From: Ancylobacter moscoviensis
GTDB lineage: Bacteria > Pseudomonadota > Alphaproteobacteria > Rhizobiales > Xanthobacteraceae
DNA length: 64,000 bases
NCBI RefSeq assembly: GCF_007559435.1
Contig: NZ_VMBP01000006.1
Span: 186,001 to 250,000, forward strand
Direction of reading: 5' to 3'
Shown: positions 31,026 to 45,055 of the stretch, in pieces
How positions within the stretch are numbered: position 1 is the stretch's first letter
Layout of the letters: every line of letters begins with the position of its first letter
Translations under genes and position numbers: made by a program
The notes under the pieces: generated by a model
Seen by the model: the letters and a program-made list of their open reading frames with translations, nothing else
Database searches by the model: none
What the model was told of the DNA's origin: nothing

Positions 31026-32009
31026 TCAGGCGGGCGTCTTGACGGGCGTTTCCGGCACCGGCGTCAGCGGCGGCCGGCCGGAGAACCAGGCGGTCAGGTT
31101 GTCGACGACGAGCTGGCCCATGGCATTCCGGGTGAGATGGGTGGCCGAGGCGACGTGCGGGAGCAGCACAACGTTGTCGAGCGCGATAAGCGCCTCCGGC
31201 ACATGCGGTTCGTTGGCGAAGACGTCGAGGCCGGCGCTGGCGATGGTGCCTTGCTGGAGGGCCTTGATCAGCGCCTCCTCGTCCACCACTGAGCCGCGGG
31301 CCACGTTGATCAGCGACCCGGTGGGGCCGAGTGCTGCCAGCACCTCGGCATTGATCATGTGATTGGTTTCCGGCCCGCCGGGAACGATGACGATCAGAAC
31401 GTCGACGTCGCGCGCCAGCCCGAGCAGGTCGGGATAGTGCCTGTAGGGTACGCCTTCGACGGGCCGGCGGCTGTGATAGGCGATCGGTCTGCCGAAGCCT
31501 TCGAGGCGCTGGGCGATAGCCTTGCCGATGCGACCCATGCCGACGATACCGATGGTGCGGTCGCGCAGCGTGGCGGTGAGCGGGAAAGCCCCCGAGGGCC
31601 ACTTGCCGGCCCGCAGATAACGCTCGGCCTGCGGCAGCTGCCGGATGGTGGAGAGAACGAGGCCGACGGTCAGGTCCGCTACCTCATCGTCGAGCACGCC
31701 GGGCGTATTCGTGACGACGATGCCGCGTCGCCCGGCCGCCTCGGCGTCCACCGAATCGTAGCCGACCCCGAAGTTGGCGACGATCTCCAGCGCCGGCAGG
31801 CGCGCCATCAGCGCGTCCGTGACACGGCGGGCCCCGCCGCCGGTCGAGCCGACGCCGGTGGCAGCGGCGCGGATGTGCGGGCCGATCTCGGCAAGAACCG
31901 CCTCCGCGTCGGGGGCGTCGAGGCGGTGAACGGTGAAGTGCTCGTTCAGCTGCGCCTCGATCATCGCCATCATGGGGCCGGTCTGGAGAAGGTCGGGGCG
32001 AGCGGACAT
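31026..32009 (-). CDS. D-2-hydroxyacid dehydrogenase, glyoxylate/hydroxypyruvate reductase-like
   Basis: 327 residues. NAD(P) motif GMGRIG (about 155) followed by a basic YHSRRP, which favours NADPH. The catalytic triad is R in NVARGSVVDE, E in NEPHVPE and H in LLPHVASAT. GhrB-like enzymes reduce glyoxylate and hydroxypyruvate. This would overlap functionally with the gcl locus at the other end of the window, but there is no positional link. The start at 32009 follows AGGAG. Confidence 0.9.
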   Translation of the reverse strand: MSARPDLLQTGPMMAMIEAQLNEHFTVHRLDAPDAEAVLAEIGPHIRAAATGVGSTGGGARRVTDALMARLPALEIVANFGVGYDSVDAEAAGRRGIVVTNTPGVLDDEVADLTVGLVLSTIRQLPQAERYLRAGKWPSGAFPLTATLRDRTIGIVGMGRIGKAIAQRLEGFGRPIAYHSRRPVEGVPYRHYPDLLGLARDVDVLIVIVPGGPETNHMINAEVLAALGPTGSLINVARGSVVDEEALIKALQQGTIASAGLDVFANEPHVPEALIALDNVVLLPHVASATHLTRNAMGQLVVDNLTAWFSGRPPLTPVPETPVKTPA

Positions 32010-32081
32010 GAGGAACTCCTGAGCGAAGGGGCCGGTATTCCTCACCAAAGCGGAGGCGGTTTCAAGCCCCCGCGCGCTTGG

Positions 32082-32591
32082 TCAGACCGTCTCTTCCTCG
32101 GCGCCTTCCGCCTCGTCGGCCCCATCAGCGTCCTCGGCCGTGTCGCTGACGACGGTGCCGAGCTCGGTCGACAGGTTGCGCTCCATCTTGCGCAGAAGCT
32201 TACGCAGGCGCTTGCGGTCCTTCCCATCGAGGCCGGCCGTCATCGTCCCTTCGAGCGAATCCCAGATGTCGTCGATCGCGCCGGCGCGCGTGCGCCCCTC
32301 ATCGGTAAGATAGACTCGCACGAGGCGGGCGTCGCCTTCCGAGGCGCGCCGCACCAGAAGGCCCTGAGCCGAGAGACGGCCGACGGTCTTCGATGCGGTG
32401 GGTGGGCGGACTTTCAGCGCCGCCGCCAGTTCGGTCATGGTGCGCCCATCCGTGTCGGCGAGCAGCTTGAGCACCGATTCCTGACCGGGAAACAACCCGA
32501 TTTCCTGCAGACGACGCGCTGCGAGGGCGCGCTGGAGACGCGCCGTATGCTGCAGTCTCTGGCCGATTTTCTTTTCGAAGCCGTCCTTCAT
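32082..32591 (-). CDS. MarR-family regulator with acidic tail
   Basis: 169 residues. Winged helix (about 35-110) with LAAALKVRPPTASKTVGRLSAQGLL and the wing R-x-EGDARLVRVYLTDEG. The C-terminus is unusually acidic (EDADGADEAEGAEEE), beyond the normal dimerisation helix. The ATG at 32591 gives the standard MarR length; upstream codons to 32675 lack similarity and contain the operator. It is 72 bases upstream of the dehydrogenase gene in the same direction, which could be its target. Confidence 0.9.
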   Translation of the reverse strand: MKDGFEKKIGQRLQHTARLQRALAARRLQEIGLFPGQESVLKLLADTDGRTMTELAAALKVRPPTASKTVGRLSAQGLLVRRASEGDARLVRVYLTDEGRTRAGAIDDIWDSLEGTMTAGLDGKDRKRLRKLLRKMERNLSTELGTVVSDTAEDADGADEAEGAEEETV

Positions 32592-32619
32592 GGGTGCCCC
32601 CGCGATCCGAAACGCCAAG

Positions 32620-32637
32620 GCAACAACTATTTGTTGC
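32620..32637. promoter_or_regulatory. MarR operator, perfect inverted repeat
   Basis: GCAACAA-CTAT-TTGTTGC has seven-base perfect arms, centred about 37 bases upstream of the marR ATG. Arms of CAACAA/TTGTTG type are typical of MarR-family sites, so autorepression is likely. Confidence 0.75.
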
Positions 32638-32754
32638 GATAGAAGCGGCTTGCCGTGACACGAACATGGCCGCAATTGGCAATTTCGTCAAAGTTCCGAT
32701 AAATCACAGCAAGATTTTTATATTTCGACCGAGAATTCACACCCGGATCCAAGT

Positions 32755-33342
32755 TCATATGCGCGCAAAGCGTGCTTCCACCCGGGCGAGGAACGCGGCA
32801 CGCCGGCCTTCACTCACCGAGTCCATGCCGTGCAGCGCCAGCCATACCTTGCGGGCGCGGGGGTGAACAATTCCTCCCACCCCGTCGAGCAGGATGCGCC
32901 GGCCGGGCTGGCCGATCCATAGCCACCAGTACCAGGGCGAGCCGAGCGTGGTGACGGTGGCCAGGAGGCGGATATTGGTCAGCCGGCGCTCGAGCGGGCG
33001 CATCGGCTCGGGCATGCCGAAGGTCTCGTGCGGCACCAGCACCCGGTCGAGCCAGCCCTTCAGCATGGCCGGCGGGCCGTACCACCAGGTCGGGGCCACG
33101 AAGATCAGTGCCTCCGCCCGCTTCACCCGTTCGAGATGGGCGGCGATGGGCAGTACGTTGGTGCCCGGCGTGTGGTAGCCGAGGCGTTCTTCCCGGCCCA
33201 TGGTGGGGTCGAAGCCTTCCGCGTAGAGATCGATCAGGTCGACCTCGTGCCCGGCCGTCCCGAGGCCGCGCAGCACCGCGTCGCGTATGGCCGCGCTGAA
33301 GCTTTCAGGGACGGGATGGCAATAGACGACGAGCGCCTGCAT
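32755..33342 (-). CDS. Flavodoxin-fold NAD(P)H oxidoreductase
   Basis: 195 residues of the KefF/MdaB/NQO family. FMN-binding features are HPVPESFSAAIRDAV near the start, TWWYGPPAMLKGWLDRVL in the middle and a C-terminal aromatic patch. Such enzymes reduce quinones or act as electron partners. The ATG overlaps the stop of the FAD oxidase gene by one base (TGATG), so the two are translationally coupled and probably work in the same pathway. It ends the leftward catabolic operon. Confidence 0.88.
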   Translation of the reverse strand: MQALVVYCHPVPESFSAAIRDAVLRGLGTAGHEVDLIDLYAEGFDPTMGREERLGYHTPGTNVLPIAAHLERVKRAEALIFVAPTWWYGPPAMLKGWLDRVLVPHETFGMPEPMRPLERRLTNIRLLATVTTLGSPWYWWLWIGQPGRRILLDGVGGIVHPRARKVWLALHGMDSVSEGRRAAFLARVEARFARI

Positions 33343-34775
33343 CACGCCTCTCTCGTCACGTCGCGTTCGAGGCCGGGGAAGAGGTAGGTCCGCCGCGTGC
33401 TGAAATCGAACGCCGGGTCCTCCCATGCGATCATCTTGCCGGGATTGAGAAGCCCGGCCGGATCGGCCTCGCGCTTGAAGGCGAGCTGCGCCGCATCAGT
33501 CTGCTTCATGCCGCCCTCCTCCAGCGTGTAGCGATGCGGATTGAATACCGGAATACCTTCCGCTTCGTGAAGCGCTATGATTTCTTCCAGCCGCTCCTCC
33601 GTGGTGAAACGCACCAGCGGCAGGCCGAAGCAGGTGATCTTGCCGTCGAAGCGCACGAATTCCAGATGCGCCGGCACTTCCTCGCCGAGCAGGGCATGGA
33701 TGCGGCCGATGAGGGCCAGCTGGTTTGGAAACGGATAGAGCGTCTGCAGATAGGTGATCGTCGGGTCGACCCGCAGCGCCCGAAGGGTCGTGTGGTTCCA
33801 GGTCAGTTCGTAGAGCGGCGGCAGGCCCTTGGCCTCCTCCGTCGGCACGAGATCCGAACGGTAGAGCATCTGTCCGCCGCGCGAGGCGGTGAAGTCGTCG
33901 AAGGCGGTACGGGCGATCGGCGCCAGCATCACCAGCACCACGTGCGTGCCGTCGGGCAGGTATTTGCGATGCCGCAGGAAATAGTCCTGCGGGACGGGGG
34001 CGGCGATGACCGAGATCAGCTTCTTGAGGATCGCGTCCTGCTCGCCCAGCGCGTTGGCATAGGCGGTGGCATCAGCGAAATCGTCGAAGCCGACGATGGC
34101 CTCGATCCAGTCGCAGGCGCCGGCGAGGGGCATCTCAGCTTCCAGGATGATGCCGTTGGTGCCATAGGCATGCGCGACCTTCTGCACCTCTTCGCCCGTC
34201 AGTTCGAGAATGCGCGGGGGCATCTCCATGGTGGCGACACGCAGGGAAACGATGTTGCCGAGGTCGCGCAGACCGCCCCAGGTGATGGAGCCGACGCCGG
34301 CCGAACCGCCGGCGATGAAGCCGCCGATGGAGGCGGTGCGATAGGTGGAGGGATGCAGGCGCAGCTCCTGCCCCGACAGCCGGCAGGCGGCGTCGATGTC
34401 GGCGAGGATGGCGCCGGCCTGGGCGCGTACGCGGCCGGGCGCGATCTCCAGCACCTTGTCGAGGCCGGAGAGGTCCAGTACCAGCCCGCCGGCCAGCGGC
34501 ATGGCCTGACCGTAATTGCCGGTGCCGGTGCCGGCGCCGCGCGGAGTGACGGGGACGCCGAGCTCCCCGCAGGCGGCGAGGACGCGCAGCACCTCCTCCT
34601 CGGTGGTTGGAAAGGCGACGATGTCGCCATTCACGCCGTCGAGCTGGCGCTTGAGCGTCGGTGAGTACCAGTAGAAGTCGCGGCTCTTCTGGCGCACCAG
34701 GGCGGGATTGTCCTCGGTGCGGATGTCGCCCAGCCGGGTTTTCAGGGCGACGATGTCGTAGGCATCAGATGGCAT
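33342..34775 (-). CDS. GlcD-type FAD-binding oxidase/dehydrogenase
   Basis: 477 residues. The PCMH FAD domain (about 45-225) has the pyrophosphate loop PRGAGTGTGNYGQAMP and STYRTASIGGFIAGGSAGVGS; a C-terminal oxidase domain ends DPAGLLNPGKM. These proteins oxidise 2-hydroxy acids such as glycolate or D-lactate, or dihydro-type substrates. Its start overlaps the amidohydrolase stop by eleven bases and its stop overlaps the flavodoxin-fold gene, so all three are co-translated. The electron acceptor might be the flavodoxin-fold protein; this is inference. Confidence 0.88.
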   Translation of the reverse strand: MPSDAYDIVALKTRLGDIRTEDNPALVRQKSRDFYWYSPTLKRQLDGVNGDIVAFPTTEEEVLRVLAACGELGVPVTPRGAGTGTGNYGQAMPLAGGLVLDLSGLDKVLEIAPGRVRAQAGAILADIDAACRLSGQELRLHPSTYRTASIGGFIAGGSAGVGSITWGGLRDLGNIVSLRVATMEMPPRILELTGEEVQKVAHAYGTNGIILEAEMPLAGACDWIEAIVGFDDFADATAYANALGEQDAILKKLISVIAAPVPQDYFLRHRKYLPDGTHVVLVMLAPIARTAFDDFTASRGGQMLYRSDLVPTEEAKGLPPLYELTWNHTTLRALRVDPTITYLQTLYPFPNQLALIGRIHALLGEEVPAHLEFVRFDGKITCFGLPLVRFTTEERLEEIIALHEAEGIPVFNPHRYTLEEGGMKQTDAAQLAFKREADPAGLLNPGKMIAWEDPAFDFSTRRTYLFPGLERDVTREA

Positions 34776-36102
34776 CGGAGCGCTCCATCAGGTCGTCCAG
34801 TTCGGCATAATCGGGCCGCGTGGTGTCGATTGCCCGCCCCTCGCGCAGCACGCGGCGGTCGAGCTGGGGACGGGACAGCGCCTCGTTGAGGCTGCGGGCA
34901 CGAAAGAGCAGGAGGTCGGCAGGACGGCCGGGGCCGAGAAGGCCGGCCTCGATGCCCATATGCATGGCCGGCGCGCGCGCAATAATCGAGGGCCAGTCGC
35001 CATGCGGATGGTCGAGATGGGCGATGCGACTGGCCTCCCGATAGACTTCGACGAGGTCGAGGTCGCCATAGGCGTAGAAGGGATCGCGGGCATTGTCGCT
35101 CGCGACCATGACCGGGATGCTGCGCGCCTTCATCTCGTGCAGCAGCGTGATCCCCCGCCAGCGCGGGGTGTGGGAGGGGTGGCGGTCTTGGAGGTAAAGG
35201 TTGCATGTGGGTAGCGAAACGACGGCGATGCCGGCCTCCGCTACCCGGTCGAGCGTGCGGTCGGCCTCCGCCGTCTCCTGACGGGCGAGGGAGCAGCAAT
35301 GGCCGACAAGCACTTGACCCTGAAAGCTTCGGCGCAGGGCGACCTCGGCGATCAGGGCGAGGGAACGGGCTCCGGGATCGGCGCTTTCGTCGACGTGGAG
35401 ATCGAGATCGAGACCGTAGCGTTCCGCCGTCTCGAACAGTCGCTCCAGCCCCGCCGGTAGCGCCGCAGACATGTAGGTGACGGCGCCCAGCACGCCGCCA
35501 TGGGCGCGTACCGCATCGACGAGCGGCAGGAATTCGGCGTCGTCCAGCACGAGATCGATAGGGGTGAGGCACACGGCCTGCAGCGCGATGCGCCCCGCCC
35601 AGCGCTCGCGCATCTCCGCGAAGACCGGCCAGCTGATGGCGGTCTGCGGGCCGATGGAATCGAGATGGGTGCGGATCGCCACCGTGCCGTGCGCATAGGC
35701 GCAGCGCAGGGCGAAATCCATGCGCCGGCGCACGTCCTGCGCGTTCCAGTTGGCGCGCCGGTCGGCATCGGCGGCGGCAAGGGCGCCGGCGAAGGTGCCG
35801 TCGGGGTTCGGCGCGCGCTTCCAGATGAAGCCCTTGTCGAGATGAGTGTGAACGTCGACAGGGCCGGGAAGGACCAGCCGGCCGGCGAGCTCGAGCCGCG
35901 CGGCGCCATTGAGGAGAGTTCCGGCGGGTGCGAGACGGGCGATGCGTCCCGCCTCGACCGCGATATCCAGCTCGACCAATCCTTCGGCGTCGACCGGAGC
36001 GGGGAGGGCTGCTTCGTCCGATACGAGGCAGGCGGGAACGCGGACGCGGCCGAGCACATAGGCGGAGGGGGGAGCGGCGAGATCGAATTCCTGCATGGTC
36101 AT
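34765..36102 (-). CDS. Cytosine deaminase-like metal-dependent amidohydrolase
   Basis: 445 residues. Metal ligands are visible in order: HTHLDK (85-90), a histidine in DLDLHVDES, one in LVGHCCSLA, and the aspartate of MVASDNARDPF. The HTHLDKGF variant and YGDLDLVEVYREA are typical of the cytosine deaminase/isoguanine deaminase branch. It would hydrolyse a ring amidine or amide. The start at 36102 overlaps the permease stop as ATGA; a second ATG at 36096 also has GGAG upstream. The very long open frame extending to 36990 is not coding. Confidence 0.88.
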   Translation of the reverse strand: MTMQEFDLAAPPSAYVLGRVRVPACLVSDEAALPAPVDAEGLVELDIAVEAGRIARLAPAGTLLNGAARLELAGRLVLPGPVDVHTHLDKGFIWKRAPNPDGTFAGALAAADADRRANWNAQDVRRRMDFALRCAYAHGTVAIRTHLDSIGPQTAISWPVFAEMRERWAGRIALQAVCLTPIDLVLDDAEFLPLVDAVRAHGGVLGAVTYMSAALPAGLERLFETAERYGLDLDLHVDESADPGARSLALIAEVALRRSFQGQVLVGHCCSLARQETAEADRTLDRVAEAGIAVVSLPTCNLYLQDRHPSHTPRWRGITLLHEMKARSIPVMVASDNARDPFYAYGDLDLVEVYREASRIAHLDHPHGDWPSIIARAPAMHMGIEAGLLGPGRPADLLLFRARSLNEALSRPQLDRRVLREGRAIDTTRPDYAELDDLMERSDAI

Positions 36103-36917
36103 GCTCCGCCGAGTTCGCTCTCGTGCCAGCGGCGGAGCACGAGCCAGGAGAGCAGGCTCAGCGCGGCATAGATGAGGATGCCGGCCAGCGAGATGAGCAG
36201 CAGCGCCGCGAAGAGGCGCGGAATGTTCAGCCGGTAGGCGGACTCGACGATGCGGAAGGCGAGGCCGGAGCCCTGTCCCGCCGAGCCCGCCGCGATCTCG
36301 CCGACCACCGCGCCGATGAGCGCCAGCCCGCCGGCGATGCGCAGGCCGCCGAGGAAATAGGGCAGGGCGGTCGGCAGCTTGAGCCGCAGCAGCGTCTGCC
36401 AGCGGGAGGCGCCGGCGAGGCGGAACAGGTCGCGCAGGTTCGGATCCACCGAATTGAGGCCGAGCGTGGTGTTGGAGAGCACCGGGAAGAAGGCGACGAT
36501 CCACGCGCAGACCAGCACCGCGGTGTCGGTGGAAAGATAGATCAGCATCAGCGGCGCCACCGCGATGACCGGCGTCACCTGCAGGATGACCGCGATGGGA
36601 AACAGCGAGAACTCGACGATGCGCGCGCTGGCGAAGATGAGCGCCAGAGCGACGCCTCCCGCAGCGGCGAGGAGGAGCGCCAGCACCGTCGTCTCCAGCG
36701 TGACCAGCATGGACTGGAACAGCACGACGCGGTCGCTGACGAGCGTTTCCAGCACCTGCCCCGGACTTGGCAGCACATAGGGCGGCAGGTTGTTGATCCG
36801 TACCACCAGCGCCCAGAGGGCGACGAGCGCGGCGAGCACGCCGATCGGCAGCAGCCAGCGGAAGGGGAACGGCCGGGAGGAGGAATGTTCGAGGTGCCGC
36901 TCCATGCGCCGCTCCAT
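36099..36917 (-). CDS. ABC transporter permease, NitT/TauT/ThiX type
   Basis: 272 residues, about six membrane helices. The cytoplasmic EAA-like loop is GASRWQTLLRLKLPTALP. It forms the inner-membrane channel for the importer whose ATPase and binding protein are encoded just upstream. The start at 36917 follows GGGAGGGAG; an ATG at 36905 is an alternative. It is 14 bases after the ATPase stop and overlaps the amidohydrolase start. Confidence 0.9.
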   Translation of the reverse strand: MERRMERHLEHSSSRPFPFRWLLPIGVLAALVALWALVVRINNLPPYVLPSPGQVLETLVSDRVVLFQSMLVTLETTVLALLLAAAGGVALALIFASARIVEFSLFPIAVILQVTPVIAVAPLMLIYLSTDTAVLVCAWIVAFFPVLSNTTLGLNSVDPNLRDLFRLAGASRWQTLLRLKLPTALPYFLGGLRIAGGLALIGAVVGEIAAGSAGQGSGLAFRIVESAYRLNIPRLFAALLLISLAGILIYAALSLLSWLVLRRWHESELGGA

Positions 36918-36931
36918 CTCCCTCCCGGCCG

Positions 36932-37732
36932 TCAGCGCGCTTCCATCGCCCGGGCGAGGGCGAGGGAGGTCTCGCGGCACAGGCCGGCATATTCCGGCGA
37001 GGTGCGGAATGCCTCGTCGCGCGGCTGGTTCGGGTCGATGGACAGTTCCGCCGAGACCCGGCCCGGTCGGGCGCGGAAGACGAGGATGCGCGAGGACAGG
37101 AACACCGATTCGAACACCGAATGGGTGACGAAGACGATGGTGCAGCCCAGTTGCCGCCAGACCTCGAGGAGATCGTTGTTGAGCTTGAAGCGGGTGATCT
37201 CGTCGAGCGCCGCGAAGGGCTCGTCCATCAGCAGCAGGCGCGGCTTGGTGACGAGCGCGCGGGCGATGGAGACGCGCATCTTCATGCCGCCGGACAGCTC
37301 GCGCGGATAGGCGTCCCGGAAGCCCGACAGCCCGACCATCTCCAGCGCCTCGGCGATGGAAGGCTCGGCCTCGCGGCGGCCGATGCCGGCGAGCTTGAGC
37401 GGCAGGTGCACATTGCCGAACACGCTGGCCCACGGCATCAGCGTCGGCTCCTGGAAGACGAAGCCGATGGAGCGCGGGCCGGTGGTGCGGCGCGTCGCTT
37501 CCCCGCCGTTCCAGTCGAGCCGGCCGGCGGTCGGCTCGGTGAGGCCGGCGATGAGGCGCAGCGCCGTCGACTTGCCGCAGCCGGAGGGGCCGAGCAGCGA
37601 GAGGAATTCGCCCTGCCGGACCTCCATGTCGAGGCCTTCGAGCGCCGTCACATTATTGGCGAAGCGCTTGCCGACGCCCCTGAGGCTGAGCAGCACCGTG
37701 CCGGCGTCGGCTTCCGCGATCACGTCATTCAT
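36932..37732 (-). CDS. ABC transporter ATP-binding protein, NitT/TauT/ThiZ type
   Basis: 266 residues. Walker A GPSGCGKST, Q-loop FQEP, signature LSGGMKMR, Walker B LLLMDEPFAALD and a switch histidine (VTHSVFES) are all present. I start at the ATG at 37732 by family length; a GTG at 37762 is possible, and neither has a clear ribosome site. It lies 84 bases after the binding-protein gene. Confidence 0.92.
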   Translation of the reverse strand: MNDVIAEADAGTVLLSLRGVGKRFANNVTALEGLDMEVRQGEFLSLLGPSGCGKSTALRLIAGLTEPTAGRLDWNGGEATRRTTGPRSIGFVFQEPTLMPWASVFGNVHLPLKLAGIGRREAEPSIAEALEMVGLSGFRDAYPRELSGGMKMRVSIARALVTKPRLLLMDEPFAALDEITRFKLNNDLLEVWRQLGCTIVFVTHSVFESVFLSSRILVFRARPGRVSAELSIDPNQPRDEAFRTSPEYAGLCRETSLALARAMEAR

Positions 37733-37816
37733 GCGCAGCGTGCGGCGATGCGCGAGGTGCACGGCGGCTGGAGCGGCCGGGATGATGGCGAAAGGCGCGG
37801 CGTCATGGACGCTCCG

Positions 37817-38845
37817 TCATTTCGGCGCCAGCTCCTTGCCGACGCCCTTGTTCACGAACTGGGTGGTGTAGGACTTCACATAGTCGATGCCGGGTTTGAC
37901 CACCTTGGCCTCGACCATCTTGTCATAGAAGCTCTTCACCCGCGCATCCGTCATGGCACCGACGCCGAGGGTCTTGGTGTCCCCGGAATCGACGATGCCA
38001 TATTCCTTCATCTTGGCGACGGAGAAGGCGATCATCGCGTCCGTCATCTCCGGATTGTCCTGCTTGATCAGGGCGTTGGCCTTGGTGTTGTCGCCGTAGA
38101 GATAATTGTACCAGCCGATGATCGAGGCATCGACGAAGCGCTGCACGAGATCGGGGTTCTGCTTCACCAGTTCGCTGCGGGTCTCGATGGTGGTGGCGTA
38201 GGTGTCGAAGCCGTAATCGGCCAGCAGGAACAGCGCCGGCTTGAAGCCGCCCTGCTGCTCGACCGAATAGGGCTCGGAGGTGACATAGCCCTGCATGGCG
38301 CTGTTCTTGTCGACGAGGAACGGCGCCGCGTTGAAGGTGTAGGGCTTCACCTGGCTTTCGCTGAACCCGTAATCGGCGACGAGCCACTGAAAATAGCTCG
38401 CGAGCCCTTCCTTGGAGACGAAGAGGGTCTTCTGCTTCAGCTGCTCGAACGCGGTGACGTCCGGATGGGCGATGAAGACCTGCGGGTCCTTCTGGAACAG
38501 CGCGGCGACGATGATCGTCGGGATGCCCTCCGCCACGGAGGAGAACGCCTGCAGCATGTTGGCGCCCATGTAGAAATCGATCTTGCCGACCGGCAGCAGC
38601 AGCCGGTTGTTGGCCTGCGGGCCGCCCGGAACGATGGTCACGTCGAGCCCGTATTTCGCATAGGTGCCGTCCGCGACCGCCTGGTAGAAGCCGCCATGCT
38701 CGGCCTGGGCCACCCAGTTGGTGCCGAAGGTCACCTTGTCGACGGCGAAGGCGGGCATCGCCGTGGCGGCCAGCGCGGCCAGGGCCGCAAGCATGCGGAG
38801 AGAGCGGGAGCAGAAGGAACGCAAGCGCAGGAAACGCAGGCGCAT
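37817..38845 (-). CDS. ABC transporter substrate-binding protein, NMT1/THI5-like
   Basis: 342 residues. Signal peptide with a basic n-region and a core LAALAALAATAMPAFA (about 18-33). The mature protein begins VDKVTFGTNWVAQAEHGGFYQA, the hallmark of the ThiY/NMT1 group, which binds pyrimidines such as HMP derivatives and other small aromatic or heterocyclic ligands. I choose ATG 38845 (GGAG six bases before) over 38857. It is the first gene of the leftward operon and faces ridA across a 144-base promoter region. Confidence 0.9.
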   Translation of the reverse strand: MRLRFLRLRSFCSRSLRMLAALAALAATAMPAFAVDKVTFGTNWVAQAEHGGFYQAVADGTYAKYGLDVTIVPGGPQANNRLLLPVGKIDFYMGANMLQAFSSVAEGIPTIIVAALFQKDPQVFIAHPDVTAFEQLKQKTLFVSKEGLASYFQWLVADYGFSESQVKPYTFNAAPFLVDKNSAMQGYVTSEPYSVEQQGGFKPALFLLADYGFDTYATTIETRSELVKQNPDLVQRFVDASIIGWYNYLYGDNTKANALIKQDNPEMTDAMIAFSVAKMKEYGIVDSGDTKTLGVGAMTDARVKSFYDKMVEAKVVKPGIDYVKSYTTQFVNKGVGKELAPK

Positions 38846-38914
38846 CGATGTCTCCATCCGGGTGCGAAAGGCAGTGCGTTACGGGATCTGTGCCGTCATG
38901 ATAGGCGAGCTTAA

Positions 38915-38939
38915 TCGCCATGCACATATGCTGTGGCGA
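38915..38939. promoter_or_regulatory. Inverted repeat in the divergent SBP/ridA promoter
   Basis: TCGCCA and TGGCGA are separated by 13 bases that include CATATG. It lies midway between the two start codons, 70 bases from the binding-protein gene and 51 from ridA, so it could bind a regulator of both arms. No regulator gene is adjacent. Confidence 0.4.
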
Positions 38940-38989
38940 CAAGTCTGTGAACGCCTGCCGCTTTCCTTCCCGCCGGATTTTTCGCGACC

Positions 38990-39379
38990 ATGCTGCGCCA
39001 TTTCGTCCCTGCCGCCGTCCGTCGTCCCTTCGCCCGCTACAGCCATGCCGTGGAGGTGACGGCCGGCGCGCGGCTGCTGCTCACTTCCGGCCAGCTCGGC
39101 ATCGCGCCCGACGACGCGATTCCCGAGGGGGTGGAGGAGCAGGCGGAGCTGTGCTTCGCCGCCATCGCCGCCTGCCTGAGGGAGGCCGGGATGGAGCCGG
39201 CCGATGTCGTGCGCCTCAACGCCTATGTCACCGACCGGACCCATATGGCCGGCTACATGGCGGCGCGCGACCGCTTCGTCGTCGACCCGCCGCCGGCCTC
39301 GACGCTGATGATCGTCTCCGGCTTCACCCGCCCCGAATTCAAGGTGGAGATCGAGGCGCTGGCGGCACGGGCGGATTGA
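38990..39379 (+). CDS. RidA-family (YjgF/YER057c) protein
   Basis: 129 residues. Family features include LLLTSGQLGIAPDD, VVRLNAYVTDRTHMAGYM and a C-terminal FKVEIEALAA. The catalytic arginine of classical RidA (near residue 105) is not obvious: the segment reads STLMIVSGFTRPEF, with Arg five residues from the usual spot, so it may be an Rid-1/7-type relative rather than a true enamine deaminase. In pyrimidine and creatinine pathways Rid proteins assist hydrolysis of unstable intermediates. Confidence 0.85.
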   Translation: MLRHFVPAAVRRPFARYSHAVEVTAGARLLLTSGQLGIAPDDAIPEGVEEQAELCFAAIAACLREAGMEPADVVRLNAYVTDRTHMAGYMAARDRFVVDPPPASTLMIVSGFTRPEFKVEIEALAARAD

Positions 39380-39459
39380 GCCTAGAACGGCCACCTTCAT
39401 TCACTCGCCTCCCTTCACCCGCCTCCATTCGCCGACCTCGTGCTTCCGGACCTGCCGCC

Positions 39460-40278
39460 ATGCCGCCCAAACGCTTCTGGACCGAACTGACCTGGCCCGA
39501 TTTCGCCGATGGCGACACGGAGAACTGGATCGCCGTGCTTCCCGTCGCGGCGGTCGAGCAGCACGGGCCGCATCTGCCGGTCGGCGTGGATGCCTTCATC
39601 GGCGAGGGCTATCTGAAGGAAGTCGCCCGGCTGCTGCCCGACGACGTCCCGGCCGTCTTCCTGCCGTTGCAGGCGATCGGCAAGTCCAACGAGCACATCC
39701 ATTTCCCCGGCACGCTGACGCTCTCCGCCGAGACGGTGATCCGCGCCTGGACGGAGATCGGCGAAAGCGTGCGCCGCGCGGGGGTGCGCAAGATCGTCCT
39801 CGTCAACTCGCATGGCGGCAACGTGCCGATCCTCGACGTGGTGGCGCGCGACCTGCGCGCCCGGCTCGGCATGCTGGCGGTGACGGTATCCTGGCATCGC
39901 TTCGGCTATCCGGAGGGGCTGTTCACGCCGCAGGAGCGCCAGCACGGCATCCATGCCGGCGGCATCGAGACCTCGCTGATGATGGCTTTCCGCCCCGACA
40001 TGGTGCGGACCGGCGAAGTGCGGGACTTCCCGCCGGTGACGCTCGCCATGGAGCAGGAATTCGCCTTCCTGCGCGCCGGCACGCCGGCCGGCTTCGGCTG
40101 GATGGCGCAGGATATCCAGCCCGCCGGCGCCATGGGCAATGCCACCGAGGCCAGCCTCGAGAAGGGCGAGACCTGCGCGCTCTACGGCGCGCGCGCCTTC
40201 GTGGAGCTGCTGGCGGACGTGCATCGCTTCGATCTCGCCCGTCTGCCGGCGGGGCCGCTGGGCGGGAGCGCGCTGTGA
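39460..40278 (+). CDS. Creatininase-family amidohydrolase
   Basis: 272 residues. Metal-site motifs are intact: VAAVEQHGPHLPVGVD, NSHGGNVPIL and HAGGIETSLMM. The family opens cyclic amides (creatinine, lactam-like and pterin-type rings). The start at 39460 is the only sensible ATG, with no strong ribosome site. Its stop overlaps the next gene (TGATG). Together with the amidohydrolase and RidA protein on the divergent arm it suggests ring-opening chemistry on an imported heterocycle. Confidence 0.9.
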   Translation: MPPKRFWTELTWPDFADGDTENWIAVLPVAAVEQHGPHLPVGVDAFIGEGYLKEVARLLPDDVPAVFLPLQAIGKSNEHIHFPGTLTLSAETVIRAWTEIGESVRRAGVRKIVLVNSHGGNVPILDVVARDLRARLGMLAVTVSWHRFGYPEGLFTPQERQHGIHAGGIETSLMMAFRPDMVRTGEVRDFPPVTLAMEQEFAFLRAGTPAGFGWMAQDIQPAGAMGNATEASLEKGETCALYGARAFVELLADVHRFDLARLPAGPLGGSAL

Positions 40279-41318
40279 TGGAGGGCTCCATCGCCGCGGA
40301 GGCCTTCCATGACCGAACGCTCAGCCTCGACGAGGCCCGCGCCTATGCCGCCCGCGTGCTGGAGCGTTTCGGCACGGCGCCGGAGAACGCCCGCCTCACC
40401 GCCGCCGCGCTCGTGCGCGCCGAGGCGGACGGGCTCGGCACGCACGGGCTGACGCGGCTGCCGAGCTATGGCGCGATGGCGGCGGCCGGCAAGATCGACG
40501 GCCACGCCGTGCCGAGGACGATGCGGGTCGCGCCTTCCGTGCTGGCGGTCGATGCGGGCAACGGCTTCGCCTATCCGGCCATCGAGCTCGGCCTGCCGGC
40601 ACTCGCCGCGCTGACGCGCGAGACCGGCATGGGGCTGATGGCGATCCGCCGCTCCAGCCATTTCGGCGTCGCCGGCCAGCCGGTGGAGACGCTGGCGGAG
40701 GCGGGGCTGGTGGGGCTGGCCTTCTCCAACGCCTCCGCCTCCATCGCCCCGTGGGGCGGGCGCCGGGCCGTGTTCGGCACCAACCCCATCGCCTTCGCCA
40801 CGCCGCTGAAGGGGCGCGCGCCGGCGGTGGTGGACCTGTCGGTCGCCAAGGTGGCGCGCGGCAACCTGCTCGCCGCCGTGCAGCGGGGCGAGGCGACGAT
40901 CCCCGAGGGCTGGGCGCTCGATACGCAGGGCAACCCGACCACCGACGCCAAGGCGGGGCTCGCCGGCACGATGGTGCCGATGGGCGAGGCCAAGGGCACC
41001 GCGCTCGCCTTCGTCATCGAGGTGATGGCGGCGGCGCTGACGGCCTCCACCTTCTCCTTCGACGCGCCCAGCTTCTTCGACGGCAAGGGGCCGCCGGCCG
41101 CCGTCGGCCATGTGGTCATCGCCATCGACCCCGCGCGCATCGCGGGCGACGCCTATCTCGACCATCTCGAGCGGCTGGCGCTCGCCATCGAGGGCGAGCC
41201 GGGCGCGCGGCTGCCGGGCACGCGGCGCCTCGCCAATCGCGCGCGTGCGGCGCGGGAGGGCGTGACGCTCGGCGCGGCGCTGCAGCGGGCGCTGGCCGGC
41301 ATGGGCTTCGCGGGCTGA
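40278..41318 (+). CDS. Ldh2-family malate/L-lactate/ureidoglycolate dehydrogenase
   Basis: 346 residues of the type 2 malate/lactate dehydrogenase fold (also includes delta-1-piperideine-2-carboxylate and ureidoglycolate dehydrogenases). Motifs include ADGLGTHGLTRLPSY, RRSSHFGVAGQPVETLAEAGLVG and FGTNPIAFATP, with the NAD(P) site in the central domain. It oxidises a 2-hydroxy acid or reduces a cyclic imine. ATG at 40278 overlaps the creatininase-family stop by one base; a GTG at 40275 is possible. A bidirectional terminator follows. Confidence 0.9.
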   Translation: MEGSIAAEAFHDRTLSLDEARAYAARVLERFGTAPENARLTAAALVRAEADGLGTHGLTRLPSYGAMAAAGKIDGHAVPRTMRVAPSVLAVDAGNGFAYPAIELGLPALAALTRETGMGLMAIRRSSHFGVAGQPVETLAEAGLVGLAFSNASASIAPWGGRRAVFGTNPIAFATPLKGRAPAVVDLSVAKVARGNLLAAVQRGEATIPEGWALDTQGNPTTDAKAGLAGTMVPMGEAKGTALAFVIEVMAAALTASTFSFDAPSFFDGKGPPAAVGHVVIAIDPARIAGDAYLDHLERLALAIEGEPGARLPGTRRLANRARAAREGVTLGAALQRALAGMGFAG

Positions 41319-42145: not shown

Positions 42146-42397
42146 ATGCCTGCCGCGTCCCCCCGCCTGCACGTCCACGAGCCTCACGCCCCTTCGCATG
42201 ACCATGCCGCGCACGATCACGCCCCGCACGATCACGGGCATGCCCATCATTCGCATGCGGCGGGAGAGCGGCATCCGGCGGCGCGGCCGGGTTTTTCGCT
42301 GCTGCGCCTGTCGGTCTGGCAGCGGCTCGCCATCGCCCTGCCGCTGGCGGCGCTTCTCTGGGCGGCGGCGCTCGCCGTGATCGGGGCGGGCGCGTGA
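42146..42397 (+). CDS. His-rich small membrane protein heading the zinc operon
   Basis: 83 residues. The N-terminal 45 are packed with His/Asp/Ala (EPHAPSHDHAAHDHAPHDHG and more; about 15 histidines), followed by one membrane helix (LAIALPLAALLWAAALAVIGA). ACGGAGA precedes the ATG. Its stop overlaps the ATPase start (TGATG), so it is translated with the importer. A metal-buffering or sensing role at the membrane is plausible; I know no described family for it. Confidence 0.75.
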   Translation: MPAASPRLHVHEPHAPSHDHAAHDHAPHDHGHAHHSHAAGERHPAARPGFSLLRLSVWQRLAIALPLAALLWAAALAVIGAGA

Positions 42398-43158
42398 TGG
42401 GAAACGTTCTCTCCTTCCGCGACCTGACGCTGGGCTATGACCGGCACCCGGCGGTGCACCATCTCGACGGCGATGTGCCGGATGGCGCGCTGCTCGCCAT
42501 TTGCGGGCCGAACGGGGCCGGCAAGTCGACGCTGCTCAAGGGGATCGCCGGGGTGCTTTCCCCCCTCGCGGGGCGCATCGAGGGAAAGCTGCCGGACCAC
42601 GCCGTCGCCTATCTGCCGCAGGCGGCGGAGGTCGACCGTTCCTTTCCCATCGATGTCTATGATCTCGTGGCCATGGGGCTCTGGCGCCGTTCCGGCCTGT
42701 TCGGCGGCATCGGCCGTGCCGACCGGCGGCTCATCGAGGAAGCCATCGCCGCGGTGGGGCTGGAAGGTTTCGAGGCGCGCCCCGTCGGCACGCTTTCCGG
42801 CGGGCAGATGCAGCGCACCCTGTTCGCGCGGCTGCTCCTCCAGGACGCAAGGCTGATCCTGCTCGACGAGCCCTTCACCGCGCTCGATGCCGGCACGGTG
42901 TCCGATCTCGTGGCGCTGATCGAGCGCTGGAACGGGGAGGGGCGGACCGTCATCGCCGTGCTGCATGATCTCGAACTGGTGCGGGTGCATTTCCCGCAGA
43001 CGCTGCTGCTCGCGCGCACCCCGGTCGCCTGGGGCGAGACCCGCGAGGTGCTGACCACGCACAATCTCGCCGAGGCGCGCCGCATGTGCGAGGCATGGGA
43101 CGAGGACGCGCCGGCCTGCGCGCCGGATATGCCCTCGCACGGCATGAGGGTGGCGTGA
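42397..43158 (+). CDS. znuC: Zinc ABC transporter ATP-binding protein (ZnuC/AztA type)
   Basis: 253 residues. Walker A GPNGAGKST, signature LSGGQMQR, Walker B LILLDEPFTALD and switch histidine VLHDLE. The C-terminus (WDEDAPACAPDMPSHGM) carries a few possible metal ligands. Start codons GTG 42394 or ATG 42397 both overlap the preceding stop. It energises the importer formed with the next two genes. Confidence 0.92.
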   Translation: MGNVLSFRDLTLGYDRHPAVHHLDGDVPDGALLAICGPNGAGKSTLLKGIAGVLSPLAGRIEGKLPDHAVAYLPQAAEVDRSFPIDVYDLVAMGLWRRSGLFGGIGRADRRLIEEAIAAVGLEGFEARPVGTLSGGQMQRTLFARLLLQDARLILLDEPFTALDAGTVSDLVALIERWNGEGRTVIAVLHDLELVRVHFPQTLLLARTPVAWGETREVLTTHNLAEARRMCEAWDEDAPACAPDMPSHGMRVA

Positions 43159-44024
43159 TGTACGATCTTCTCATCGGGCCGTTCGCCGAATTCGACTTCA
43201 TGCGCCGCGCGCTTGTCGGCGTGCTGGCGCTCGGCGTCGGCGCCGGGCCGGTCGGCGTCCTGATGATGCTGCGCCGCATGAGCCTCGCCGGCGACGCGAT
43301 GGCGCACGCCATCCTGCCGGGAGCGGCGGTCGGCTTCCTCGCGGCCGGGCTGAACCTTTTCGCCATGACGGTCGGCGGTCTCGTCGCCGGCTTCGCGGTG
43401 GCGCTGGGCGCCGGCGCGGTGGCGCGGGCCACGCAGATGAAGGAGGACGCGGCGCTCGCCGCCTTCTACCTGATCTCGCTGGCGCTCGGCGTGCTGCTGG
43501 TCTCGCTGCGCGGCTCCAACGTCGATCTGCTGCATGTGCTGTTCGGCACGGTGCTGGCCCTCGACGACGCCACGCTGCTGCTGATCGTCTCCATTTCCAC
43601 CCTGACGCTGGCGGTGCTGGCGCTGCTCTGGCGGCCGCTGGTGCTGGAGAGCGTCGATCCCGGCTTCCTGCGCTCGGTCAGCCGGGCGGGGGCGCCCTCG
43701 CACCTCGTCTTCCTGGCGCTGGTGGTGACGAACCTCGTCGGTGGCTTCCATGCGCTGGGCACGCTGCTCGCCGTGGGCATGATGATGCTGCCGGCCGCCG
43801 CCGCGCGCTTCTGGACGCGCGAGCTGACGGCGCTGGTCGGCGTGTCGGTGCTCGTCGCCTGCGTCTCCGGCGTCGTCGGCCTGCTGGTCTCCTACCATTC
43901 CGGCGTGCCTTCGGGCCCCGCCATCATCCTTGTCGCCGGCGGCGCCTACGCGCTGTCGGTGCTGTTCGGGCCGGTCGGCGGGCTGCTGCTCCGCCTGATG
44001 CCGCGCCGTCATCTCGAAGCCTGA
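43158..44024 (+). CDS. znuB: Zinc ABC transporter permease (ZnuB/AztB type)
   Basis: 288 residues, eight or nine membrane helices. Family motifs RRMSLAGDAMAHAILPGAAVGFL, DLLHVLFGTVLAL and GTLLAVGMMMLPAAAARFW are present. The ATG overlaps the znuC stop (TGATG). Manganese is an alternative substrate for this family, but the His-rich partners favour zinc. Confidence 0.92.
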   Translation: MYDLLIGPFAEFDFMRRALVGVLALGVGAGPVGVLMMLRRMSLAGDAMAHAILPGAAVGFLAAGLNLFAMTVGGLVAGFAVALGAGAVARATQMKEDAALAAFYLISLALGVLLVSLRGSNVDLLHVLFGTVLALDDATLLLIVSISTLTLAVLALLWRPLVLESVDPGFLRSVSRAGAPSHLVFLALVVTNLVGGFHALGTLLAVGMMMLPAAAARFWTRELTALVGVSVLVACVSGVVGLLVSYHSGVPSGPAIILVAGGAYALSVLFGPVGGLLLRLMPRRHLEA

Positions 44025-44035
44025 GGAGTAAGCCC

Positions 44036-45055
44036 ATGCTGACCCGTCGCCCCTGGCTCGCCGCCGCGTTTGCGCTCGGCCTTGCCGCGCCTGCCGCCGC
44101 GCAGGACGCCACGCCCGCCGCCGCGACCCAGATTCCCGTCGTCGCCTCGTTCTCGATCCTCGGGGATTTCGTGAAGGAGGTCGGCGGCGATCGCGTCGCG
44201 GTGACGACGCTGGTCGGCCCCAATGGCGATGCGCACGTCTTCCAGCCGGCGCCGGCCGACGCCAAGAAGGTGGCGGGCGCCAAGGTGGTGTTCGTCAACG
44301 GGCTCGGCTTCGAGGGCTGGATCGACCGGCTCGTGAAAGCCTCCGGCACCAAGGCGGACGTGGTCGTCGCGACCAAGGGCATCGAGCCCCGCGAAATGGC
44401 CGAGGAGGAAGACGGCCACGAGGCCGCCCATGACCACGACAAGGCGCACGACCACGATCACGACAAGCATGCCGAGGGGAAGGCGCAGGACCACGATCAT
44501 GCCCACGATCACGCCCATGACCATGGCGGCATCGATCCTCATGCGTGGCAGTCGGTCGGCAATGCGAAGCGTTACGTCGCCAATGTCCGCGACGCGCTGA
44601 TCGCCGCCGACCCGGCGGGCCAGGCGACCTATGAGGCGAATGCGGCCGCCTACACGGCCAAGCTCGAGGCGCTCGATGCCGAGGTGAAGGCGGCGGTGGC
44701 GAAGATTCCCGCCGACAAGCGCCGCATCATCACCTCGCACGACGCCTTCGGCTATTTCGGCGCGGCCTATGGCATCGAGTTCGTCGCCCCGCAGGGCGTC
44801 TCGACCGAGGCGGAGGCCTCCGCCAAGGACGTTGCCCGGATCATTCGTCAGATCAAGACGGAAAAGATTCCGGCGGTGTTCGTCGAGAACATTTCCGACC
44901 CGCGCCTCGTCAAGCGCATCTCGGAAGAGACCGGCGCGAAGATCGGCGGCGAGCTCTATTCCGACGCGCTGTCCGATGACAAAGGCCCGGCGAGCACCTA
45001 CATCGACATGATGAACAACAACGTCCGTGAGCTGTCCTCGGCCCTGTCGAGCTGA
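44036..45055 (+). CDS. znuA: Zinc ABC transporter substrate-binding protein (ZnuA/AztC type)
   Basis: 339 residues with a signal peptide (cleavage near AAAQD). Cluster A-I metal ligands: histidine in NGDAHVFQP, histidine in IDPHAWQSV, histidine in ITSHDAFGYF and an acidic residue in YSDALS. A long His/Asp loop (about 125-160, HDHDKAHDHDHDKHAEG and more) sits between the first two, as in ZnuA-type proteins. It captures periplasmic zinc for the permease. It begins 11 bases after the permease stop. Confidence 0.95.
   Translation: MLTRRPWLAAAFALGLAAPAAAQDATPAAATQIPVVASFSILGDFVKEVGGDRVAVTTLVGPNGDAHVFQPAPADAKKVAGAKVVFVNGLGFEGWIDRLVKASGTKADVVVATKGIEPREMAEEEDGHEAAHDHDKAHDHDHDKHAEGKAQDHDHAHDHAHDHGGIDPHAWQSVGNAKRYVANVRDALIAADPAGQATYEANAAAYTAKLEALDAEVKAAVAKIPADKRRIITSHDAFGYFGAAYGIEFVAPQGVSTEAEASAKDVARIIRQIKTEKIPAVFVENISDPRLVKRISEETGAKIGGELYSDALSDDKGPASTYIDMMNNNVRELSSALSS

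Follow-up and report, generated by a model that had tools for sequence, protein, structure and literature searches.

Which compound is taken up and broken down by the divergent gene cluster at 32755-41318 in a 64,000-nucleotide stretch of Ancylobacter moscoviensis DNA (hereafter the window)? The vitamin folate is built on the pterin ring system, and almost every organism makes folate and other pterins. In our literature search little was found on bacterial dismantling of the pterin ring, and no paper, judged by title and abstract, described this gene set. An earlier note had read the cluster as one N-heterocycle pathway (import, deamination, oxidation, a Rid protein and amide hydrolysis), with pterins already among the candidate ligands that it named. 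The single pathway is supported by our analysis, and its two arms are conserved together. The view that it matches no route no longer holds, since the flavoenzyme (PDB 6v42) and the deaminase (Variovorax type, PMC9513972) both have relatives tied to folate or pterin breakdown. Comparison of the encoded proteins and of related loci indicates that the locus probably takes up and breaks down pterins, either folate breakdown products or related pteridines.

Gene content of the locus

All nine frames were present where the earlier note had placed them, six running leftward and three rightward (Table 1). With the starts chosen here, the overlaps in the left arm are 1, 11 and 4 bp and the ATPase and permease genes are spaced by 14 bp; in the right arm the creatininase-family and Ldh2 genes overlap by 4 bp. 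The start of the reductase gene (flv) was picked so that its product matches the relatives in length (about 195 aa); the longest frame begins at 33426. The family labels given earlier were correct at superfamily level, but the names of the FAD enzyme, the creatininase-family protein and the Rid protein were misleading.

Table 1. Features of the locus and its neighbours, in window coordinates
Feature	Position	Strand	Evidence
D-isomer 2-hydroxyacid dehydrogenase (glyoxylate-reductase-like), possible accessory	31026..32048	-	PF02826 174 bits
MarR-type regulator, probable regulator of the locus	32082..32675	-	PF12802 45 bits
flv: flavodoxin-fold NAD(P)H-dependent reductase, 195 aa	32755..33342	-	PF02525 99 bits
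FAD-dependent flavin oxygenase, PDB 6v42 orthologue	33342..34775	-	phmmer, Foldseek
Amidohydrolase, putative pterin deaminase	34765..36102	-	NF005759 'cytosine deaminase' 639 bits
ABC permease	36099..36917	-	PF00528 68 bits
ABC ATPase	36932..37762	-	PF00005 121 bits
NMT1/THI5-like periplasmic binding protein, putatively pterin binding	37817..38857	-	PF09084 86 bits
Conserved element in the divergent gap, candidate operator or promoter	38902..38929	.	Ancylobacter gap alignment
Rid-family protein without the usual arginine	38990..39379	+	PF01042 77 bits
Creatininase-family amide hydrolase, not creatininase itself	39460..40278	+	PF02633 248 bits
Ldh2-type NAD(P)-dependent 2-hydroxyacid dehydrogenase, accessory	40275..41318	+	PF02615 311 bits

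Conservation across relatives

Loci of this kind recur across Proteobacteria. Among 65 named loci with full flanks, the flavoenzyme was kept in 62, flv in 61, RidA in 54 and the creatininase-family gene in 50, presence being scored at identity thresholds of our own choosing (e.g. 40% for the creatininase-family gene and 48% for Rid). Conservation of the two arms had been set as a test, and the arms were kept together, with flavoenzyme and creatininase-family gene both present in 47/65 loci. The linkage of the creatininase-family gene goes beyond chance, because this genome holds one homologue at E ≤ 1e-60, yet in 50/65 loci the gene is found no more than 10 kb away from the amidohydrolase. It was missing from 15/65, and seven Bosea loci together with locus L207 had no importer, Rid or creatininase-family gene. 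The nine genes do not form a unit as had been proposed: Ldh2 was present in all 10 Ancylobacter loci and in none of the 55 other named loci with full flanks. At one locus outside Ancylobacter (L086) a 59% identical Ldh2 copy lies about 5 kb from Rid.

The FAD enzyme and its reductase

The FAD enzyme aligned with PDB 6v42 over residues 7-471 (phmmer E-value 1.8e-202), and 6v42 was also its first-ranked Foldseek match (64% identity over 466 columns). By this full-length agreement in sequence and fold, the enzyme is an orthologue of the 6v42-type flavin oxygenase. The title of 6v42 reads 'flavin oxygenase with cofactor bound involved in folate catabolism'; our literature search found no paper on the role of this flavoenzyme, for which that title is the single source. 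The title gives neither reaction nor substrate, and the likeness of 6v42/6v43 to the window enzyme is one of sequence and fold. The loci nearest to the solved protein, two from Hoeflea MAGs, encode a flavoenzyme 85% identical to the 6v42 chain and carry the same gene set as the window.

The enzyme had been called a GlcD-type oxidase, a label that has to be withdrawn. It scored 63.9 bits against the GlcD profile, far under the cut-off of 567.9, and the likeness is confined to the FAD-binding half: FAD_binding_4 (PF01565) was the only Pfam match, the FAD-oxidase C-terminal domain was absent, and the best match to a D-lactate dehydrogenase in the PDB ends at residue 299. The flv gene adjoins that of the FAD enzyme in most relatives and is present in two copies in many Mesorhizobium loci. 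Its product likely supplies electrons to the flavin oxygenase.

The amidohydrolase

The amidohydrolase scored 639 bits against NF005759 'cytosine deaminase' (cut-off 403), and its best PDB matches were CodA-type. The profile leaves the substrate undecided, because homologues from Alloyangia and Pantoea in the same locus type scored 334 and 220 bits, under the cut-off. HTH 89-91, H240, E243, H272 and D340 were invariant in an alignment of 22 sequences; H89, H91, H240, E243, H272 and D340 are presumably the metal-site residues, with roles known from CodA. Asn341, also invariant in the 22 rows, stands opposite the second Asp of the CodA HDD motif, which we take to be Asp314, so the window enzyme lacks this CodA feature. 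Arad3529 of Agrobacterium radiobacter K84 is reportedly a pterin deaminase that its authors (2013) tied to an undescribed pterin degradation pathway.

The pterin deaminase of Variovorax sp. F1 is proven to deaminate folate and pteroate, and an endoribonuclease (Rid-type) gene lies downstream of its gene (PMC9513972). A search with a primer of this deaminase returned 20 loci, 0/20 with the amidohydrolase; the Variovorax-type orthologue was found by a protein search within the genus of genome G671. Its start and length (399 aa) equal those of the proven F1 enzyme, with a Rid gene directly behind. The window amidohydrolase is homologous to it (38% identity over 385 columns), and a creatininase-ABC-flavoenzyme-flavodoxin set lies opposite the Variovorax-type deaminase in 11/16 loci examined. 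The two types differ in operon context: the Variovorax-type deaminase-Rid pair continues a D-erythronate/L-threonate operon, whereas the Ancylobacter deaminase stands in the transporter operon.

A quick tree placed the window amidohydrolase and the Variovorax-type deaminase on one side of a supported branch, among 78 rows split from five other amidohydrolase rows; support was by SH-aLRT only, and the tree has four long branches and three rows of odd letter make-up. Its input was 197 sequences thinned at 72% identity to 81, with the window and L299 proteins added. On the window's side, 69/78 rows came from loci or genomes that also have the flavoenzyme, a label set by hand for the window (from its locus) and for L299 (from L312 in the same genome). 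The other 9/78 were labelled as not linked and include Aminobacter and Phyllobacterium copies sited in another catabolic cluster, as well as L332, a 3-kb stretch unable to show linkage; at 2-3 kb in length, L328-L332 all carry a 'no' label that is uninformative. We infer from these comparisons that the amidohydrolase is a pterin deaminase. It shares only 38% identity with its Variovorax-type counterpart, and the substrate may have changed within the group.

The Rid protein, the amide hydrolase and the importer

The window Rid protein lacks the active-site arginine of RidA, presumably Arg105: the Arg of HI0719 and 1jd1 stands opposite Ser, and that of TdcF opposite Leu. The creatininase-family protein scored 95 bits against creatininase (TIGR04448, cut-off 235) and has Gly150 opposite the Glu of the creatininase HYEN motif, which we take to be a metal ligand; it thus departs from creatininase in both profile and motif. 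It shares its superfamily with the formamidopyrimidine deformylase ArfB, which hydrolyses the amide of a 5-amidopyrimidine, but scored only 25 bits against the ArfB model (cut-off 180).

The model of the binding protein (pLDDT 90.9) had as its nearest folds thiamin- and formylaminopyrimidine-binding proteins and THI5, at 17-21% identity, and no NCBIfam model matched the protein. The ligand of this NMT1/THI5-like protein is putatively a pterin, and binding of thiamin and pyrimidines by its nearest folds counts in favour of the pterin reading.

Alternative substrates

The Rut pathway consists of an importer, a flavin oxygenase with its flavin reductase, a Rid protein and a hydrolase, and this parts list is mirrored in the window. 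The oxygenase, importer and hydrolase belong to other protein families than those of Rut, which acts on another ring. On a Rut-like reading the substrate would be a pyrimidine, for example a modified cytosine, with a cytosine-deaminase-type enzyme acting first and the uracil ring then opened by a flavin oxygenase; both the NF005759 score and the CodA-type PDB matches fit that reading. However, Asn341 replaces the second HDD Asp of CodA, a proven pterin deaminase from a like locus falls in the deaminase group, and the solved flavoenzyme orthologue is labelled as folate catabolism. We regard a pyrimidine substrate as improbable. A thiamine precursor such as HMP, salvaged or degraded around a ThiY-like importer, would agree with the nearest folds of the binding protein. 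Those matches lie at 17-21% identity without an NCBIfam match, the flavoenzyme and deaminase links indicate pterins, and we see a very slim chance for it. Creatinine degradation is suggested by the creatininase-family gene, but that protein is under the creatininase cut-off with the metal-ligand Glu replaced by Gly, and the nine genes include no creatinase or N-carbamoylsarcosine hydrolase; we give this reading virtually no credence.

A purine in oxidised or methylated form (8-oxoguanine, dimethylguanine) could also be what the locus salvages or degrades, a reading that draws on an 8-oxoguanine-deaminase-family gene found in 9/80 named loci (652 bits at L145, cut-off 532). Enzymes of this branch accept guanine analogues (PMC13054789). 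The gene was present in 0/10 named Ancylobacter loci, however, the copy in this genome lying elsewhere, and for this reason the copies in Stappiaceae and Kaistiaceae loci were dropped as the main reading. PDB 2paj, which we take to be an isoxanthopterin deaminase, is among the matches of this gene, which hence fits pteridines too. A purine substrate appears very unlikely.

Proposed pathway and fate of the side chain

For pterins, the preferred substrates, we propose the following route. The NMT1-type ABC importer would take up the pterin, which the amidohydrolase would convert to a lumazine by stripping the 2-amino group. Oxidation and opening of the pyrazine ring would fall to the reductase and flavin oxygenase. 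The N5-acyl or lactam amide formed in this way may be cleaved by the creatininase-family enzyme, much as ArfB acts on a formamidopyrimidine, and carbon 6 would be freed as an acid that still bears the side chain. The Rid protein may help where the diaminopyrimidine forms an imine or enamine. The freed 2-hydroxy acid would, in Ancylobacter, be oxidised by Ldh2 and by the D-2-hydroxyacid dehydrogenase encoded nearby. We infer which of deamination and oxygenation comes first, as well as all steps past deamination. With the gene set conserved, one step demonstrated in a relative and the structure of one enzyme solved, the remaining pathway is directly testable, and the labels 'cytosine deaminase', 'creatininase' and 'GlcD' are corrected in this context.

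In 9/77 Rhizobiales genomes, from about three lineages, a D-erythronate dehydrogenase gene is found no more than 20 kb from the deaminase (0.67 expected); the IolB control gave 0/65. This linkage counts in favour of the pterin reading. The D-erythronate/L-threonate operon precedes the Variovorax-type deaminase, with an isomerase gene upstream in 16/16 loci. Both the dehydrogenase linkage and the operon link are new in this analysis, and because of them we suggest that carbon 6 and the side chain are released as a 2-hydroxy acid. Not counted as support were L-threonate-dehydrogenase-like genes beside three Rhizobiales loci (310-313 bits, cut-off 350) and a tetronate-kinase-like gene beside a Pseudosulfitobacter locus, under every cut-off.

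Tentatively, and with more doubt than confidence, the locus family may be the missing bacterial pterin-ring route, in which a single 2-hydroxy acid carries off carbon 6 together with the side chain. If so, the model predicts the acid yielded by each pterin: D-erythronate from neopterin, L-threonate from monapterin and glycolate from hydroxymethylpterin. It would explain the D-erythronate dehydrogenase, L-threonate dehydrogenase and tetronate kinase, isomerase and decarboxylase genes beside the Variovorax-type deaminase, the D-erythronate dehydrogenase near the deaminase in three Rhizobiales families, and the other 2-hydroxyacid dehydrogenases at the Ancylobacter locus.

Neighbouring genes and the divergent gap

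The best NCBIfam match of the D-isomer 2-hydroxyacid dehydrogenase was glyoxylate reductase, under the cut-off; the gene occurs in 17/65 named loci with full flanks, 7 of them outside Ancylobacter. A MarR-type regulator gene is present in 30/65. An inverted repeat was sought in the divergent gap and none was found. Alignment of seven Ancylobacter gaps revealed a conserved element of two halves, TAGGCGAGCTTAA and ATGCACATA, a candidate operator or promoter. Allowing no more than one mismatch, the two halves occurred together in 9/10 Ancylobacter loci, and as a pair they were found in none of the 49 other loci scanned.

Flavoenzyme and putative deaminase of the locus

The FAD enzyme had been read as a GlcD-type oxidase, a reading that did not hold. 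It was GlcD-like by profile with a score far under the cut-off, no GlcD C-terminal domain was found in it by profile search, and its one full-length sequence match among solved proteins was 6v42 (E 1.8e-202). A Foldseek search with the predicted model (pLDDT 82.2) also ranked 6v42 first, at 64% identity. The title of that entry is "Crystal structure of the flavin oxygenase with cofactor bound involved in folate catabolism". The flavoenzyme of two Hoeflea MAG loci (L186 and L212), both of which carry the reductase, amidohydrolase, importer, Rid and creatininase-family genes, was 85% identical to the 6v42 chain. By sequence, the FAD enzyme is an orthologue of 6v42.

A 399-residue deaminase cloned from Variovorax sp. 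F1 is described as deaminating both folic acid and pteroic acid, with an endoribonuclease gene downstream of its own (You et al., 2022; PMC9513972). The same source (PMC9513972) reports no degradation of deaminopteroate by cell extract; the figure legend for this assay lists no NAD(P)H, which we infer an oxygenase step would need. The deaminase in L299, a stretch of a relative's DNA, has 399 residues and begins MKLEAVR, in agreement with the published primer over its first 15 bases, with a Rid gene directly behind. The genus of L299 was taken to be Variovorax because of its large genomes, this 399-residue MKLEAVR protein and the adjoining Rid gene. The L299 protein showed 38% identity to the window amidohydrolase and 46% to the Alloyangia homologue; the window amidohydrolase is a homologue of a proven deaminase.

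The Variovorax-type deaminase occurred in 31 of 41 genomes of this genus (E<=1e-75 against the Alloyangia homologue), and 16 of the 31 loci (15 plus L248) were examined over 20 kb each. In 11 of the 16, genes for a creatininase-family protein, ATPase, permease, flavoenzyme, NMT1 binding protein and two reductases (flavodoxin-fold and VanB-type) lay opposite the deaminase; in the other five the importer-flavoenzyme set was not within the 20 kb. In a quick tree of 83 rows, a supported branch (SH-aLRT only) set 78, including the window and L299, apart from the other five. Of these 78, 69 were labelled flavoenzyme-linked, a clustering that partly reflects kinship; the labels of two rows were set by hand, and one "no" row was too short to tell. 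Amidohydrolases 52-53% identical were also seen on Aminobacter and Phyllobacterium plasmids (L130, L131), in a different catabolic cluster with an isochorismatase, a tautomerase, a second amidohydrolase and an opine-dehydrogenase-like gene.

The earlier note held that the locus matches no known route. This kind of locus is already known, because a solved enzyme is labelled for folate catabolism, a relative of the deaminase has published activity, and a 2013 paper on Arad3529 reportedly spoke of a pterin degradation pathway not yet described. The separation from Rut was upheld: the Rut pathway for uracil has a similar logic, but its parts are unrelated to those of the locus, which is no member of it.

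Gene layout and conservation

All nine genes claimed earlier were found in the window. Reading outward from the divergent gap, the left arm encodes the binding protein, the ATPase, the permease, the amidohydrolase, the FAD enzyme and the flavodoxin-fold reductase; the frames from permease to reductase overlap by 4, 11 and 1 bp, respectively. Beyond this arm, on the same strand, lie genes for a MarR regulator and a D-2-hydroxyacid dehydrogenase. On the right arm the Rid gene comes first, then the creatininase-family and Ldh2 genes, whose frames share 4 bp. Nine of the 10 loci counted as Ancylobacter (nine Ancylobacter records and "Xanthobacteraceae bacterium 501b", the nearest named loci to the window) have the short paired element between the arms, each half matching with no more than one mismatch. 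The pair was absent from the 49 other loci scanned. The MarR regulator may use this element as its operator.

Gene content and conservation were observed directly in named loci around amidohydrolase relatives (best 80 of 583 confirmed stretches), 65 of which had about 10 kb on each side of the amidohydrolase. Among these 65 full-flank loci of the best 80, the numbers that carry each gene were: FAD enzyme 62, reductase 61, binding protein 56, Rid 54, creatininase-family gene 50, MarR 30, D-2-hydroxyacid dehydrogenase 17 and Ldh2 10. The FAD enzyme and creatininase-family gene occurred together in 47 of the 65; the two arms are conserved together, so the refuting outcome named in the earlier note, arms that part company, was not seen. 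Ldh2, which had been counted in the unit, is an add-on, present in 10/10 Ancylobacter versus 0/55 other full-flank named loci (best 80 of 583). Outside Ancylobacter, L086 has a 59% Ldh2 copy about 5 kb from Rid. A second set of 19 Ancylobacter-genus loci, some from genomes that also supplied named loci, all had the creatininase-family gene; 17 had the FAD enzyme and 15 had Ldh2.

Rearranged forms of the core set were found in alpha (Rhizobium pRL12, Palleronia, Alloyangia), beta (a Comamonadaceae plasmid) and gamma loci (Pantoea, a Klebsiella record), and a flavoenzyme homologue (E<=1e-70) in 32 of 398 genomes sampled across the phylum. In two Ancylobacter dichloromethanicus loci (L112, L138), on contigs of equal length, the flavin oxygenase match covered 76 residues only, with the other locus genes present. 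L125 lacked the deaminase, flavoenzyme, reductase and Rid genes and retained the importer, creatininase-family gene and Ldh2.

Proposed pathway

Pterins are likely the substrate class, with the amidohydrolase probably deaminating the pterin and the FAD enzyme and reductase probably carrying out the oxygenation. The binding-protein model (pLDDT 90.9) had as closest folds a thiamin-bound binding protein, THI5 and a formylaminopyrimidine-binding protein, and is compatible with a heterocyclic ligand, without specificity. The creatininase-family protein lacks the HYEN glutamate of creatininase and scored under the creatininase cut-off. ArfB, a member of this family, hydrolyses the formamide of a formamidopyrimidine, and an amidase acting on an opened pterin is therefore reasonable; our guess is that such cleavage would free a 2-hydroxy acid, which in Ancylobacter might be oxidised by Ldh2 or the D-2-hydroxyacid dehydrogenase. 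At the position of the Arg of solved relatives, the Rid protein carries Ser or Leu, which makes classical imine deaminase activity doubtful; the protein could perhaps have a supporting role.

Tetronate genes near the deaminase

In L312, from the same genome as L299, the start of the deaminase gene overlaps the end of a 2-oxo-tetronate isomerase gene (381 bits, cut-off 325). Ahead of the isomerase lie genes for 3-oxo-tetronate 4-phosphate decarboxylase (230 bits, slightly under the cut-off of 250), 3-oxo-tetronate kinase (630 bits, cut-off 350), D-erythronate dehydrogenase (388 bits, cut-off 325) and L-threonate dehydrogenase (462 bits, cut-off 350). The isomerase gene was immediately upstream of the deaminase in 16/16 Variovorax-type loci, all of one genus; the five with no importer set within the 20 kb share this arrangement. 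D-erythronate dehydrogenase (NF043036, E<=1e-60) was found in 162 of 297 Rhizobiales genomes. Among the 150 matches listed, positions of both this gene and the deaminase were known in 77 genomes; they lay on one contig within 20 kb in 9 (0.67 expected) and within 40 kb in 13 (1.34 expected), assuming uniform placement in 5.2 Mb. For the inositol gene iolB, used as control, 0/65 lay within 20 kb, with a single case at 33 kb. The nine linked genomes come from three families (four from f16, four from f28 and one from f50), or about three independent events plus the Variovorax-type genus; the Poisson value for the linkage takes no account of this kinship. Of the f16-type sequences checked, 3/3 were above the dehydrogenase cut-off (368-393 bits).

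Carbon 6 of neopterin with its D-erythro-trihydroxypropyl chain, freed as an acid, is D-erythronate, and the same split of monapterin would yield L-threonate. Release of carbon 6 with the side chain as an acid fits the two dehydrogenases beside the deaminase. Several observations speak against it: no D-erythronate dehydrogenase was found in the window's genome with the NF043036 model (its two 3-oxo-tetronate kinases lie away from the locus), and tetronate genes are absent from the f60 loci L250-L253, L258, L259 and L264, Rhodobacterales-like by tree, and from most of 187 loci screened; clustering of catabolic genes also has many causes. Neither the whole gene set nor the tetronate link was found in the literature searched, and the link is a testable extension of a known kind of pterin locus.

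Additional genes at the loci

Positions of the short element and of additional genes in the window and in stretches of relatives' DNA
Feature	Position	Setting	Remark
Short element, TAGGCGAGCTTAA then ATGCACATA	window 38902-38929	divergent gap	conserved
ABC ATPase, permease, His-rich binding protein	window 42394-45055	near locus	look like a zinc importer by eye from translations
8-oxoguanine-deaminase-family gene	L145:5031-6374	between Rid and creatininase-family genes	
Large FAD/GcvT-type gene	L151:13441-15963	adjoins and faces reductase	dimethylglycine-dehydrogenase-like
Methyl-accepting chemotaxis receptor	L265:11572-13449	adjoins Rid gene	Rhizobium johnstonii pRL12

The 8-oxoguanine-deaminase-family gene was present in L145 and eight more of the 80 named loci (best 80 of 583), mostly of Stappiaceae and Kaistiaceae, with the same placement in all four laid out (L145, L154, L157, L208); its product could be a second pteridine deaminase. 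The FAD/GcvT-type gene was carried by L151 and 20 more of these 80 (21/80, best 80 of 583), mostly Mesorhizobium, and has the same arrangement in L168. In two Rhizobium plasmids examined, the receptor gene adjoins the Rid gene of the locus, which suggests chemotaxis to the locus substrate.
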